Part shown: piece by piece, positions 32,285 to 37,669 of the stretch
Layout of the letters: every line of letters starts with the position of its first letter
Position numbering within the stretch: the stretch's first letter is position 1
NCBI RefSeq assembly: GCF_015565955.1
Contig: NZ_CP064760.1
Coordinates: forward strand, 2,232,001-2,296,000
Length of the DNA: 64,000 nt
Direction of reading: 5' to 3'
DNA from: Microbacterium schleiferi
GTDB taxonomy: Bacteria; Actinomycetota; Actinomycetes; Actinomycetales; Microbacteriaceae
The notes under the pieces: generated by a model
What the model was told of the DNA's origin: nothing
What the model saw: the letters and a program-made list of their open reading frames with translations, nothing else
The model's database searches: none
Position numbers and translations under genes: made by a program

Positions 32285-32341
32285 CGCCCGCTGAGCAGCC
32301 CCGACGACGGGCGCGCAGGGTCATCGCATTCACAGACGGCA

Positions 32342-32370
32342 CATAGCTGCCTCCATAGGAAACGCATAGC
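32342..32370 (+). promoter_or_regulatory. Three CATAG direct repeats upstream of the response regulator
   Basis: CATAG occurs at 32342, 32354 and 32365, spaced 12 and 11 bp, one helical turn apart, just upstream of the ATG at 32391. OmpR-family regulators bind such tandem half-sites. The same motif, as a perfect palindrome, lies in front of the flavin operon at 37622-37635. Confidence 0.5.
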
Positions 32371-32390: not shown

Positions 32391-33122
32391 ATGACATCTC
32401 CGGCACCCGCCCTGCGCCGACCCGACGGCTCGGCTGTGCGCATCCTCGTCGTCGATGACGAACAGATGCTCACCGACCTTCTCTCGATGGCCCTGCGCAT
32501 GGAGGGCTGGGATGTCCGCACAGCGGCATCCGGATTCGAGGCGCTGCAGGCGGTCCGAGACGTCGAGCCCGATGCGATGGTGCTCGACATCATGATGCCC
32601 GACCTCGATGGCATGGCAGTCCTCCACCGACTGCGGCAGTCGGGAAACGACGTTCCAGTACTGTTCCTGACCGCGAAGGATGCCGTCTCCGACCGTGTCG
32701 CGGGGCTGACCGCGGGCGGCGACGACTACGTCACGAAGCCGTTCAGCCTTGAGGAGGTCGTGGCGCGACTTCGCGGTCTGATGCGACGCGCGGGAACCGC
32801 CACGCAGAGCGAGGAAGAACCCATCCTGCGTGTGGGTGACCTCTCGCTGAACGAGGACAGCCACGAGGTTCAGCGAGGCGGCGACGAGATCGAGCTCACG
32901 GCAACCGAGTTCGAGCTCCTGCGCTATCTGATGCGCAACCAACGTCGCGTCGTCTCCAAGGCGCAGATCCTCGATCGGGTCTGGAACTACGACTTCGGTG
33001 GCCGGTCGAGCGTCGTCGAGCTCTACATCTCCTACCTGCGCAAGAAGATCGACCAGGGCAAGGAACCGCTCATCCACACTGTGCGCGGCGTCGGATACAT
33101 GATCAAGGCGCCAGCACAGTGA
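32391..33122 (+). CDS. Response regulator transcription factor, OmpR/PhoB family
   Basis: This 243-residue regulator has an N-terminal receiver domain (acidic pair VDDEQ near residue 22, phosphoacceptor Asp66 in MVLDIMMPDLDG, conserved Lys in YVTKPFSLEEV) and a C-terminal winged helix (ELTATEFELLRYLMRNQ, RVWNYDFGGRSSVVELYISY). The histidine kinase gene overlaps its stop by 4 bp (GTGA), so this is the partner pair. CATAG repeats in its promoter suggest autoregulation. Confidence 0.95.
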   Translation: MTSPAPALRRPDGSAVRILVVDDEQMLTDLLSMALRMEGWDVRTAASGFEALQAVRDVEPDAMVLDIMMPDLDGMAVLHRLRQSGNDVPVLFLTAKDAVSDRVAGLTAGGDDYVTKPFSLEEVVARLRGLMRRAGTATQSEEEPILRVGDLSLNEDSHEVQRGGDEIELTATEFELLRYLMRNQRRVVSKAQILDRVWNYDFGGRSSVVELYISYLRKKIDQGKEPLIHTVRGVGYMIKAPAQ

Positions 33123-34654
33123 GTGATGGCGCCCGCGTCGGATGGCGACCATGGGGACTCGAGGGGCGCCTGGTCGTGACGATCGTCGCGGTCGTGGCGC
33201 TGATCTTCGCGAGCGTGAGCATCGCAACCGGTGCGATCCTCGGATCGATCCTGCAATCCAATCTCGACAACGAGGTCACGGAAGCCACGGCGAAGGCACT
33301 GCGCACCGTCCATGATGCGCCCCAGGTTGCCGCCGGAACCGAGGATGCCGCAGCGTTGCTGGCATCGATGCCGTTCGAGCCGGGCTTCCTCCTCGTGGTC
33401 GAATCGGCCTTCGGATCGGTCACGGGCGGGTACATCGACGCCGACGGGACCGTATCGTCGCTCGATGACTCGCAGATGGCGCAGATCGTTCAACAGCTGA
33501 TCCAGCCGGGAGAGGGCGGCCCCGTCCGCGAGATCACGATCGACGGGGTCGGGACCTACCGGATGCTCGCGCTCGGCGGCGGCAGCTTCGCTATCGCCTC
33601 GGGCCTTCCCGCGAGTCAGGTGACCGCGACGCTCACGCAGATCGCGACGACCGTCGCCCTCCTCACCGCCGGCGGACTCGTCCTCCTGGGGCTCGCCGTG
33701 ACGGTGATCGTGCGCCGGAGCCTGCGCCCCCTTCGCGTGGTCGCCGACACGGCTGAGCGCGTTGCGAGCGTCCCGATGGCCGAAGGCGCCGTATCGATTG
33801 CCGACCGCGTCCCGGACTCGGAGATCGACGAGCACACCGAGATCGGCCGCGTCGGCCACGCCCTCAATACGCTGCTGGACCACGTCGACGCGTCCCTGGA
33901 GGCCCGCCAGCTCAACGAAGACCGGATGCGGCGCTTCGTCGCCGATGCGAGCCACGAACTGCGCACCCCGCTCGCCTCGATCCGGGGCTACTCGGAGCTC
34001 TCGCTGCGCGACCCGCTGCTCAGCGAGACAACCGAATCGGCACTCTCCAGAATCCAGGCGCAATCGCTGCGGATGACCCGACTCGTGGAGGACCTCCTGC
34101 TGCTGGCGCGGCTCGACGAGGGACAGGAGCTCGTCTACGGCGTCGTGGACCTCACGCAGCTCGGCGTGGAAGCTCTCGGCGATGCGCAGGTCGCCGGTCC
34201 CGAGCACGTCTGGCTGCTCGAGGTCGACGAGGAGCCGGTGACGGTTCCCGGTGACGCGGCCCGTCTGCAGCAAGTGCTCGTCAACATGCTCGCGAACGCA
34301 CGCACGCACACTCCCGCGGGAACCGAGGTCACGCTCACGGTCAGCCGCGAGCACTCCGTCGACGGCGCGCAGGGCGCGGATGCCGCGGTCATCAGCGTGC
34401 ACGACAACGGCCCGGGGATCGAGCCGGCTATCGCCGACGAACTGTTCGAGAGGTTTTCGCGGGCCGACAGGTCACGCGCTCGCCAGACCGGCGGCACCGG
34501 GCTCGGACTGTCAATCGCGCGCGCGATCGTCCGCGCGCATCACGGTGAGATCTCGGTTCAGAGCGCTCCCGGCGACACCACCTTCACGGTTCGCCTGCCG
34601 CTTCCCGCAGAGCAGGGTCGCGCCGAACCGGCAGCTGTGGGGTCGGCTCAGTAG
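33119..34654 (+). CDS. Sensor histidine kinase (HAMP-HisKA-HATPase)
   Basis: This 511-residue membrane kinase has a first helix (LVVTIVAVVALIFASVSIAT), an extracytoplasmic sensor of about 140 residues, a second helix (LTAGGLVLLGLAVTVIVRR) and a HAMP domain. The phosphorylated His279 is in DASHELRTPLASIRGYSE. The ATP-binding N, G1 and G2 boxes are MLANARTHTP, VHDNGPGIEP and GGTGLGLSIARAI. The sensor domain has no recognisable ligand fold. The gene ends 7 bp into the convergent flavoreductase gene, so kinase and flavin operon are immediate neighbours. Confidence 0.94.
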   Translation: MSDGARVGWRPWGLEGRLVVTIVAVVALIFASVSIATGAILGSILQSNLDNEVTEATAKALRTVHDAPQVAAGTEDAAALLASMPFEPGFLLVVESAFGSVTGGYIDADGTVSSLDDSQMAQIVQQLIQPGEGGPVREITIDGVGTYRMLALGGGSFAIASGLPASQVTATLTQIATTVALLTAGGLVLLGLAVTVIVRRSLRPLRVVADTAERVASVPMAEGAVSIADRVPDSEIDEHTEIGRVGHALNTLLDHVDASLEARQLNEDRMRRFVADASHELRTPLASIRGYSELSLRDPLLSETTESALSRIQAQSLRMTRLVEDLLLLARLDEGQELVYGVVDLTQLGVEALGDAQVAGPEHVWLLEVDEEPVTVPGDAARLQQVLVNMLANARTHTPAGTEVTLTVSREHSVDGAQGADAAVISVHDNGPGIEPAIADELFERFSRADRSRARQTGGTGLGLSIARAIVRAHHGEISVQSAPGDTTFTVRLPLPAEQGRAEPAAVGSAQ

Positions 34655-36222
34655 CCGCTGAACGCGTCGGTGGTCACCGACTTCGCCCGCTCGAGCGCCG
34701 GTGCGAGGTCGGCGATCAGTCGCGGCGGCCCCGAGATGGCGGCATGGCGGGTGTGCAGATCGGGCACGACCTGCAGCAGACCCGCGGCATCCAGACGCAC
34801 GCCGCGCGCCCACTGCCAGCTCTCGGGCAGCTGACCCGGATCGTCACGGGTGAACAACACAACCGGTACGCCCGATGCCGCGATGTCATCGCGGAAGGCG
34901 AGTTCGGCAGCTTCGGAGGCGACGTACACCAGAACGATGTCGCGGTGCTGTCCGCTGGCATGGAGGTGCCGCAGTTGCGACACGAACGGGGTGATGCCGA
35001 TTCCGGCGGCCACCATCAGGAGCGGGGTCTCTGCTCGACTCGGCAGGACGAAATCACCCCAGATTCCCGTGACTGCCAGCGAGGCTCCGGCATCGACCTC
35101 CGCGAGGGCCCGCTTGTAGGAGCTCGGAGCCGGACCGCCCGCACCCGCCGGGTACTCGCGAAACGCAATGCGGATCGTGGGGAGATCCTCGGGAGCCGAG
35201 GCGATGCTGAACTCGCGACGGGTGCCGCGGGCGTCCGGCCGGTGGTGGGGAACGTCCAGCTCGAGGTACTGGCCGGGAAGGAAGTGGATGCGGCGCTTGG
35301 CGCTGAAAGTCAGCATCCGCACCGTGGGCGTGATCATCTCGCGGGACTCCAGCGTCAACCGCACAGCGGCGCGCACCGAGAACGCAAAGGCGACGAGGTT
35401 TCCCACCAGGAGCGCGCGTTCCTGACCGAGCGTGATCTCACCGAGCGAGATCGGCCAGCCGGCGAGGACCCCGACCACGCCCGCGACGAGGAACTGCTGC
35501 CAGCGCCGCGGCGGGAGCGTCAACGGTTCCGAGAGCATGAAGACGCCCAGGAAGAGGAACGGCGAGGACCACAGCAGCGACCAGAAGATCGTTGCCGGCT
35601 CGACGACGAGGCCCGCCGACTGGTACTGCATCGTCGTCCGCACGAAGCCGACAGCCACGGCGACCAGCAGGAACACCAGCACCATGCGGATCTTCTCGGT
35701 GCGCCACAGCACCCCGAGTCCGAGAACGACGACGGGAGCCGCGAGCACCGGCGTGCCCACCCACCACGCCGACGCGCCGAGCGCCGGAATCCAGATGCTG
35801 ACGATCGTGAGGACGGCAGCGCCCACAGCAGCGGGGTTGAAGATGTGGCGACCGCGCCAGGCCAGCACGTACTTGGATGCCGCGGCCACGGCACCCGCCA
35901 GGGCGACACCCACCAGCGCGAGCGGGTCCAGGGTCGGCCGCAGCACGAACAGCAGGATGAACGCCGTGATCACCGACGATTCCAGGCGCAGTGACTGCGC
36001 GATGATCCGGTGCGCGATGACGTCGACCAGCCCCGAGGCAAGCGTCAGCACCACGAGGGTAGCGAGCATCTCCAGCGGTGTCGGCGCGACCAGTCCAAAA
36101 AATGACACGCCGAACGCGATGACCGTGAGCGTCAGCAGCGCCAGAAACACCATCCGGTACATCGAGACTTTGCCGAGCACCGCGAACACGCGATTCCAGC
36201 CGGCGGTCAAAAATCCGATCAT
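34648..36222 (-). CDS. Membrane flavoreductase: RnfD/NqrB-like transmembrane domain fused to FNR-type NAD(P)H:flavin reductase
   Basis: This is a 524-residue fusion. The first roughly 290 residues form about ten hydrophobic helices with RnfD/NqrB-like character (LESSVITAFILLFVLRPTLD, GRHIFNPAAVGAA). The C-terminal part is a ferredoxin-NADP reductase module: FAD-binding FLPGQYLELDVP and REFSIASAPED, and NAD(P)-binding PLLMVAAGIGITPFVSQLR. The predicted role is passing electrons from cytosolic NAD(P)H into the membrane. Its ATG overlaps the apbE stop (ATGA). With ApbE and an FMN-binding lipoprotein upstream, it fits an extracytosolic flavin electron-transfer route. Confidence 0.88.
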   Translation of the reverse strand: MIGFLTAGWNRVFAVLGKVSMYRMVFLALLTLTVIAFGVSFFGLVAPTPLEMLATLVVLTLASGLVDVIAHRIIAQSLRLESSVITAFILLFVLRPTLDPLALVGVALAGAVAAASKYVLAWRGRHIFNPAAVGAAVLTIVSIWIPALGASAWWVGTPVLAAPVVVLGLGVLWRTEKIRMVLVFLLVAVAVGFVRTTMQYQSAGLVVEPATIFWSLLWSSPFLFLGVFMLSEPLTLPPRRWQQFLVAGVVGVLAGWPISLGEITLGQERALLVGNLVAFAFSVRAAVRLTLESREMITPTVRMLTFSAKRRIHFLPGQYLELDVPHHRPDARGTRREFSIASAPEDLPTIRIAFREYPAGAGGPAPSSYKRALAEVDAGASLAVTGIWGDFVLPSRAETPLLMVAAGIGITPFVSQLRHLHASGQHRDIVLVYVASEAAELAFRDDIAASGVPVVLFTRDDPGQLPESWQWARGVRLDAAGLLQVVPDLHTRHAAISGPPRLIADLAPALERAKSVTTDAFSGY

Positions 36223-37118
36223 GTGAACAACTCTGCCTTACACCGCTCGGTCCCGAATCCGGGAGACCAGTCGACCTGTCCCGTCGTCATCATCCGCACC
36301 CACTCGACGCCCCAGCGGTGTGCGAGCTCCGGGCCTCCCTCGAAGAACAGCGCGGTTGCGGCGGCATCAGCGATCATCGCGGTGGGGGCAACTGCCCAGG
36401 TCGCCGCAACCGTCCGCACCGGCACGCCCGTCCTCGCGTCCAAAACGTGGTGAAGCCCGTCGCCCCAGGCTCGCCGATTCGTCGCCGAGGCGCACAGCGC
36501 CGCATCCGCGAGCTCGACGACGCCGAGGATCCGGGTCGCGTCGTAGGGATGCTCGAGCCCGACCCTCTCGGGAGCATGCGAGCACCGCAGGTCGCCGCCG
36601 GCGTCTACGACGAGGGTGCCGCGGGTGCGCGGTTCGAGGTGCTCGGACACGAGATCGACCAGACGCCCCTTCCCGATCGCGCCGACATCGATGACAGCCG
36701 GCCGCGACACCGAGAGCGTGCCCCTGTCGGTGGAGATAACCCCTCGCCAGTCTCGCGGGGCCCCGACGGGACCGCTCGTGCGCAGCGAGTAGGACCGGTC
36801 GTAGCCCAGCGCTTCCAGCGAGGCACCGATGAGCGGGCTCACAGCTCCGTCCGTCGCCGCGTCGAGGTCCGCGTAGACAGCGAACATCGCCTCAGCATCC
36901 GCGGGGAGGGCTCGGGAACCGCCCGAGGCGAGGGCGCTGACCGTGGAGTCCTCGCGGAACCGCGACCATTCCCGGTCGAAGCCGTCAATCAGAGCGAGCA
37001 CTGCGGCGCGCTCTGGCTCGCTCAGCGGTACGTCAGTGTCAACGGACCAGTGCGTGCCGATCGCCTCGAAGCGCCAGCTCGGCGATCGGCCCCGATCGAC
37101 GCGTGGTTCGCCGCTCAT
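36219..37118 (-). CDS. FAD:protein FMN transferase ApbE
   Basis: This 299-residue transferase attaches FMN by a phosphoester bond to Ser/Thr of target proteins, using FAD. ApbE motifs are visible: FEAIGTHWSVDTD at the start, DVGAIGKGRLVDLVSEHL for FAD binding, TLVVDAGGDLR, and the C-terminal VAPTAMIADAAATALFFEG with metal-binding residues. No signal peptide is obvious. It lies between the FMN-binding lipoprotein, its likely substrate, and the membrane flavoreductase, and is coupled to the latter by a 4-bp overlap. Confidence 0.92.
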   Translation of the reverse strand: MSGEPRVDRGRSPSWRFEAIGTHWSVDTDVPLSEPERAAVLALIDGFDREWSRFREDSTVSALASGGSRALPADAEAMFAVYADLDAATDGAVSPLIGASLEALGYDRSYSLRTSGPVGAPRDWRGVISTDRGTLSVSRPAVIDVGAIGKGRLVDLVSEHLEPRTRGTLVVDAGGDLRCSHAPERVGLEHPYDATRILGVVELADAALCASATNRRAWGDGLHHVLDARTGVPVRTVAATWAVAPTAMIADAAATALFFEGGPELAHRWGVEWVRMMTTGQVDWSPGFGTERCKAELFT

Positions 37119-37131
37119 TACGCCAACGAGA

Positions 37132-37577
37132 TCAGGCTGCAGCCTCGGCCTTGATGAGCTCGACGGCCTGCATGAAGCCGCCGCTGGTCAGCGACGATCC
37201 CGAGACGCGGCTGACCGAGACCTCGTCGAGGCGCTTGCCGACCACCTCGTTCTTGATGCCACCGATGAACTGGGACTGGTACTGCTCGGACTCGCGCGCC
37301 TGGGGGTTCCCCGTGACCTCGACCTCCGTGACGACATCATCGGCAAGCGTCAGGGTCACCGTGACCGTCTCGACCGATTCGGGCGTCGCGTAGGAGCCTT
37401 CCGCCGTGTAGGTGCCATCGGCGTAGCCGTCGGCAGAGGTCGATCCGGAGCCTGCGCCGGCATCCGTCTGCCCGGCGCCCGTGTCGGCTGTGGCGCCGCA
37501 TCCGGCGAGGCTGAGAGCACCGGCGACACCGACGAGGGCGACACCGACACGTACGGGGCGGGAGGGGTGCGAGTCAT
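37132..37577 (-). CDS. FMN-binding domain lipoprotein (frameshifted in this sequence)
   Basis: The main frame encodes a lipoprotein signal (VGVALVGVAGALSLAGCGA, lipobox LAGC), a Gly/Ser/Thr linker, and an FMN-binding domain. That domain has GYADGTYTAEGSY at its start and ends in the flavinylation-type motif SGSSLTSGGFMQAVE. The ATG with a good ribosome site (AAGGACTGCTC) is at 37577 but in another frame. Restoring one C to the run at 37564-37567 joins MTRTPSRPVRVGVALVG in frame, and total length is 3n-1 as expected. The product would be about 148 residues, lipid-anchored outside the membrane and flavinylated by the downstream ApbE. Confidence 0.85.
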
Positions 37578-37621: not shown

Positions 37622-37635
37622 GCCTATGCATAGGC
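37622..37635. promoter_or_regulatory. Perfect 14-bp palindrome upstream of the flavin operon (GCCTATGCATAGGC)
   Basis: The palindrome lies 45 bp upstream of the lipoprotein start. Its half-site CATAGG matches the CATAG repeats before the two-component system gene. It is a candidate binding site for the neighbouring response regulator. Confidence 0.5.
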
Positions 37636-37669
37636 TTTGAGGCGGCAGCGAGCGGGGAGGATGTCGAGG

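Follow-up and report, generated by a model that had tools for sequence, protein, structure and literature searches.

We identified a two-component system and a flavin gene cluster facing each other in the window, the 64-kb stretch of Microbacterium schleiferi DNA analysed here, which belongs to a genome of 3.30 Mb in a single contig. The plus strand encodes a PhoP-like response regulator of the OmpR/PhoB type (32391–33122; Pfam Response_reg and Trans_reg_C) and a membrane histidine kinase (33119–34654; Pfam HAMP, HisKA and HATPase_c). The kinase has two hydrophobic segments (residues 11–47 and 171–200), and the stretch between them is probably extracytoplasmic. The minus strand encodes a membrane electron-transfer protein that fuses an NqrB/RnfD-like domain to an FNR domain (34648–36222), an ApbE-type FAD:protein FMN transferase (36219–37118; Pfam ApbE, 116.6 bits) and a lipoprotein with a lipobox, a GSSLTS motif and a Pfam FMN_bind domain (about 37577 to 37132), whose frame is broken near the start. 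The FMN_bind stop and the apbE start are 13 bp apart, the apbE end and the fusion gene start overlap by 4 bp, and the last 7 bp of the kinase gene are shared with the end of the convergent fusion gene. The genes and strands are those of the coupled operon in the original prediction, which had also placed it, correctly, convergent with an OmpR-type regulator and its kinase.

Both units are preceded by copies of an 11-bp direct repeat (CAnAG-N6-CAnAG). This pattern has only three matches in the 64-kb window, two of them on the plus strand upstream of the regulator gene (CACAG-N6-CATAG at 32331–32346 and CATAG-N6-CATAG at 32354–32369, the second starting 23 bp past the start of the first) and one on the minus strand upstream of the flavin operon (CAAAG-N6-CATAG at 37624–37639).

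The electron-transfer module

The fusion protein (524 amino acids) has an N-terminal NqrB/RnfD-like domain and a C-terminal FAD/NAD(P)H reductase domain; its closest named relative is from M. schleiferi FXH-192 (93% identity). The Pfam NqrB/RnfD family does not match the window protein at E 0.01 and is found in 31 of the 48 members of its alignment. The C-terminal NAD-binding domain (PF00175) scores 24.4 bits in the window protein (cut-off, 22) and is present in 44 of the 48. The fold predicted from the 48 sequences (mean pLDDT, 89.8) aligns with RnfD and NqrB in a realigned structure list, and its reductase part aligns with the FAD domain of NqrF. Foldseek's own best 50 matches for this model were to the reductase domain only, the NqrB and RnfD matches emerging after realignment. 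An earlier model built from 15 sequences was discarded; its membrane part was poor (mean pLDDT, 72.1) and the realigned search returned the reductase domain. The covalent flavin motif [ST]GA[ST] is absent from the first 285 residues of all 48 alignment members. The PF00175 domain, the clustering with ApbE and FMN-binding genes and a membrane subunit without a covalent flavin site are traits of the NQR/RNF-like class, and the flavin genes fit a coupled electron-transfer operon of this known class (PMC8238504). Hence, the expectation of an extracytosolic flavinylation system of a known kind was borne out at the level of genes, domains and predicted fold.

The lipobox cysteine is present in 76 of 77 relatives of the lipoprotein, its position falling outside the alignment in the remaining one. 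The acceptor-motif position reads GSSLTS in all 77 and at all 20 operon loci outside the genus. The described consensus for FMN acceptors is [S/T]GA[S/T]-like (PMC8238504). A serine of GSSLTS could be the FMN acceptor, though the GA of the consensus reads GS here. A simple hydropathy window detected no signal-like hydrophobic stretch in the window ApbE and none before the AIGT motif in the 73 ApbE relatives having this motif. Most characterised ApbEs are secreted lipoproteins, and a cytosolic ApbE is given as an exception (PMC12052999). Because the acceptor motif departs from the consensus and ApbE has no evident signal peptide, flavinylation of the exported lipoprotein is not assured. We considered a 798-amino-acid ApbE-fusion protein (P0204) as a sign of a cytosolic ApbE and dropped it, as its ApbE part seemingly ends out of register (by eye).

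The lipobox and the FMN_bind domain are read in a different frame from the ATG at 37577, and no ATG, GTG or TTG in their frame lies upstream of the lipobox, which is itself present. The frame is intact through the lipoprotein start region in the three closest relatives. We judge a sequencing error in the assembly to be the likeliest cause of the break, which may alternatively be a real loss in this strain.

Promoter boxes and their likely reader

The direct repeat is common to many promoters of the genus upstream of the lipoprotein gene. Among 80 named loci (L260–L339, nearly all from Microbacterium), it occurs in every one of the 74 regulator promoters and in 45 of the 77 operon promoters scored. 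We controlled for spacing by varying the spacer from 0 to 13 bp and scoring same-strand matches. With the 6-bp spacer, matches were found in 13 of 22 operon promoters of the genus and at 8 of 20 operons outside it, where the linkage described below fails. The same spacer matched 25 of 25 regulator promoters of the genus and 21 of 27 from other genera, these 27 loci being the best-scoring ones rather than a random draw. Spacer 7 matched 18 of the 25 regulator promoters of the genus because it spans the place where two tandem boxes meet; the remaining spacings gave 0 or 1 match in each of the four promoter sets. The strict box is absent from 32 of 77 named, 9 of 22 genus and 12 of 20 outside-genus operon promoters, several of which keep one good half-site (by eye). 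The named loci and the numbered genomes (G000 and following) share organisms, and the counts include related, non-independent genomes.

The boxes have a regular position relative to a putative promoter element. In a column profile of the 74 named-set regulator promoters, a conserved -10-like sequence (CACAAT) starts 9 bp downstream of the last box, and the operon promoters have a weaker -10-like signal at a similar distance. A TAnnnT -10 element is almost absent from the regulator promoters. At 9 bp from CACAAT the box would cover the -35 region, an arrangement that fits activation and is no proof of it. The lipoprotein gene is also preceded by a 14-bp palindrome (GCCTATGCATAGGC), which we considered as the operator and rejected because, judged by eye, promoters of the genus do not generally contain it; the direct repeat that overlaps it recurs.

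The best PDB match of the window regulator is PhoP from Mycobacterium tuberculosis (273.6 bits versus 204.6 for PrrA). PhoP binds as a tandem dimer to TCACAGC-N4-TCACAGC with a strict 4-bp spacer and, hence, an 11-bp period (PMC4832192). Six residues of its recognition helix are named as DNA contacts (PMC4832192), and four of them (Val213, Glu215, Tyr217 and Tyr220, read off the alignment) are kept in the window regulator; the other two are changed (Asn212 to Ser and Ser216 to Leu). The PhoP-type target, a 7-bp direct repeat with a 4-bp spacer, is matched at the sequence level by the 11-bp period and the outcome of the spacing control. Likeness to PhoP and the presence of boxes in its own promoter make the neighbouring regulator the likely, if uncertain, reader of the box. 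It probably controls the flavin operon through the conserved boxes.

There is a small but real chance that one or more different OmpR-type regulators read the boxes and that the neighbour is incidental. OmpR-type regulators are numerous, a first look giving as many as 49 candidates in one genome, and direct repeats with a similar period are recognised by many of them (PMC4832192). Yet no promoter set has the box as constantly as the neighbour's own, as autoregulation predicts, and the closest match of this regulator is the very protein whose box resembles CAnAG-N6-CAnAG.

Gene linkage and the wider candidate regulon

All five genes occur in the same order in 71 of the 80 named loci. Seven others are cut by contig ends (L274, L282, L296, L313, L320, L329 and L333), the L301 sequence stops 2 kb beyond the fusion gene and no kinase was found in it, and L339 has no FMN_bind gene above threshold. 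The fusion gene is also present in 21 of 22 same-genus genomes (G001–G022), and the regulator and kinase adjoin it convergently in all 21, with one locus cut before the FMN_bind gene. Linkage within the genus is more than chance and is a genus trait. The gap between kinase and fusion gene ranges from none to 2.8 kb, and other genes are inserted in the six wide-gap loci examined. P-type-ATPase-like genes (by eye) are inserted at the locus in some relatives (L038, 4761–7523; L190, 11569–13689).

Across the family, the fusion is present in 79 of 199 genomes and 38 of 85 genera (E ≤ 1e-50) and a regulator orthologue in 180 of 199 genomes (E ≤ 1e-85). Two same-genus genomes, G004 and G201, have the regulator and no fusion. 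The two-component pair of G004 lies between a 6-phosphogluconate-dehydrogenase-like gene and genes that we take from their sequence to be prs- and glmU-like, with a P-type-ATPase-like gene in between (names by eye). Outside the genus, the regulator was near the operon in none of 20 loci within the 14–19 kb looked at, one of these loci being outside the family; a kinase match lies 7 kb from the operon in one of them (G167). The regulator and fusion are within about 10 kb of each other in at least two genomes of one other genus (G167 and G103), with nine predicted genes between them in G167. The original prediction had asked for a check of the linkage across Microbacteriaceae; it was found within the genus, and beyond it the two units mostly lie apart. 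Independent occurrence, which had been named as evidence against the prediction, was observed both ways (G004 and G201 for the regulator; 20 of 20 outside loci for the operon). Because regulator and operon genes are separable, linkage alone proves little, and we rejected it as evidence of function.

A second explanation is that the two units adjoin by inherited Microbacterium gene order only and have no regulatory tie. The confinement of the linkage to the genus in the loci looked at, the variable and gene-interrupted gap and the G004 pair without the operon agree with it. What it leaves unexplained is a box of fixed spacing that is common to both promoters, also where the operon lies elsewhere, and we regard this explanation as improbable.

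The box also recurs at other genes. The pattern CAnAGN6CATAG has 87 matches in 14 same-genus genomes (G000–G013), compared with 32 for spacer 7; the regulator accounts for 11 of these 32. The raw count does not exceed that of the pattern read backwards, which has 100 matches in these genomes; for spacer 7 the backwards pattern has 92, far above the 32. A looser pattern in the window's own genome gave 26 matches versus 58 backwards. The excess over spacer 7 was not seen in the seven more distant genomes of the same searches, with 24 matches versus 39 for spacer 7, ten of the 39 being one repeat in G024. Because raw counts are no higher than those of the backwards-read control, the case for a regulon rests on spacing, position and recurrence.

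As regards position, G001–G013 contain 81 matches, 25 of them at regulator or flavin promoters and 56 elsewhere. We examined 41 of the 56 (39 loci), the 15 left out including five extra G004 sites and nine that begin CAGAG. Site regions were picked before gene calls, not at random, and genes were called by a simple codon-bias script with approximate starts. Of the 41, 33 were intergenic and had a gene starting on the same strand at -40 to 130 bp, and three were inside genes. In contrast, only two of 12 spacer-7 control sites (from 21 non-regulator ones) were intergenic before a same-strand start and eight were inside genes. Looser sites in the own genome preceded a same-strand gene in only 12 of 28 cases (some counted twice).

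Target families were assigned from a Pfam scan of one member each. The most recurrent is a gene we take from its sequence to be ftsH, with a box in seven relatives and a one-mismatch site (by eye) at the copy in the window genome. A Dioxygenase_C-like lipoprotein gene has the box in three genomes, perhaps four, and genes for DUF4956 and PLDc_N proteins in two each (second member by eye). Genes for VKOR, DsbA-like and Cthe_2159 proteins have it once each. The looser pattern precedes a trypsin/PDZ protease gene of the window genome, presumably HtrA-like. One relative has an opposite-strand site at a ferric-reductase-like gene. Membrane and exported proteins are the theme of these genes, though not all targets fit it; an amino-acid-type ABC ATPase and a MerR-like gene (by eye) are off theme.

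We also noted a membrane protein of about 150 amino acids with a box in five genomes, the window genome included (L150, L192, L194, L200 and L209). A Pfam scan of one member (L192) gave no family at E 0.001. In two genomes of the genus, one being the window genome, the box lies 46 bp upstream of a PMT_2 glycosyltransferase gene (L151, for which the family was scanned, and L218, by eye). In L227 and L228, three tandem half-sites with an 11-bp period, an arrangement that would suit a regulator trimer, precede a dioxygenase-like gene (by eye) and a Cthe_2159 lipoprotein gene.

Because copies of the box precede ftsH, VKOR, DsbA-like, glycosyltransferase and other genes, control is not dedicated, contrary to the suggestion of a dedicated kinase in the original prediction. 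Despite adjacency in the 71 named loci, a sensor serving the flavin operon alone is very improbable given these other boxes, a regulator more than twice as widespread as the fusion (180 versus 79 of 199 family genomes) and its presence without the fusion in G004 and G201.

Proposed control and comparison with known systems

We consider it likely that an autoregulated PhoP-like two-component system controls an NQR/RNF-like electron-export operon within a broader, non-dedicated regulon. The reading draws on computed gene order, domains, fold matches, box conservation and spacing, unlinked loci included, and recurrence of the box at other genes. A presumed envelope signal would act on the kinase, and the phosphorylated regulator, the putative binder, would occupy, as a tandem dimer, the 11-bp direct repeats that lie shortly before the -10-like element. 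Bound at its own promoter and at that of the flavin operon, it would activate rather than repress transcription. Electrons would then flow outwards, from NAD(P)H to FAD in the C-terminal domain of the fusion protein and across the membrane via the NqrB/RnfD-like domain to FMN attached by ApbE to the surface lipoprotein, which would pass them to a putative acceptor outside. The regulator would also govern mostly membrane and exported functions (FtsH, VKOR, DsbA-like protein, PMT-type glycosyltransferase, dioxygenase-like lipoprotein and others).

A more speculative extension, which we view as rather doubtful, is that throughout Microbacteriaceae the PhoP-like regulator responds to envelope stress and combines flavin-mediated NAD(P)H electron export with FtsH, an HtrA-like protease and the disulfide machinery (VKOR/DsbA) in one repair programme. 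The role of the exported electrons might then be to maintain the redox state of the cell surface, not to support respiration or iron uptake, and cytosolic ApbE might flavinylate the lipoprotein at the GSS serine either before the lipoprotein is exported or in the course of its export.

Extracytosolic flavinylation systems are common, and for many of them cues and acceptors have yet to be assigned. The electron module described here is of a known kind; what is new is its probable PhoP-like control through a conserved operator in a broader regulon. Searches of open papers for the control of such flavin operons or for the window regulator found none on this subject. The fixed-spacing operator would tie one flavinylation system to an identifiable regulator and to other probable targets. 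This offers a direct handle (one mutant, one operator and one co-regulated set) on the conditions and the purpose of electron export by the cell. Furthermore, the pairing of a signal-less ApbE with a lipobox lipoprotein poses a concrete question about the site of flavinylation.

Like the NQR/RNF-like systems, described mainly from Actinobacteria and the candidate phyla radiation (PMC8238504, 2021; PMC11334425, 2024), the module has an NqrB/RnfD-like membrane domain fused to a NAD-binding reductase, apbE, an exported FMN-binding subunit and a membrane subunit without the covalent-flavin motif (PMC8238504; PMC11334425). The window locus differs in its ApbE without signal peptide, its GSSLTS acceptor motif and its position beside a PhoP-like two-component system that probably controls it. 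The passages on these systems in PMC8238504 and PMC11334425 make no mention of such control; Fur control is mentioned there for the PepSY-like flavinylation class. The regulator shares with M. tuberculosis PhoP the OmpR/PhoB architecture, the 11-bp CAnAG direct repeat and four of the six named contact residues (PMC4832192). Here, however, the second half-site is mostly CATAG rather than CACAG and other genes lie behind the boxes; the likeness is that of a best structure match. MsrQ-like systems follow the same logic, from NAD(P)H to extracytosolic FMN with ApbE and FMN_bind, but use a ferric-reductase-like membrane domain instead of NqrB/RnfD (PMC8238504).

The window's own genome has an MsrQ-like cluster (C1:1344000-1363000, L055, 7361–11832) that encodes a ferric-reductase-like protein, an FMN_bind protein with the canonical SGAT and ApbE. 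This cluster is also convergent with a two-component pair, a different one. The flavin-based extracellular electron transfer of the Gram-positive Listeria likewise moves electrons from NADH to a flavinylated surface lipoprotein, but through other membrane subunits and a quinone step.
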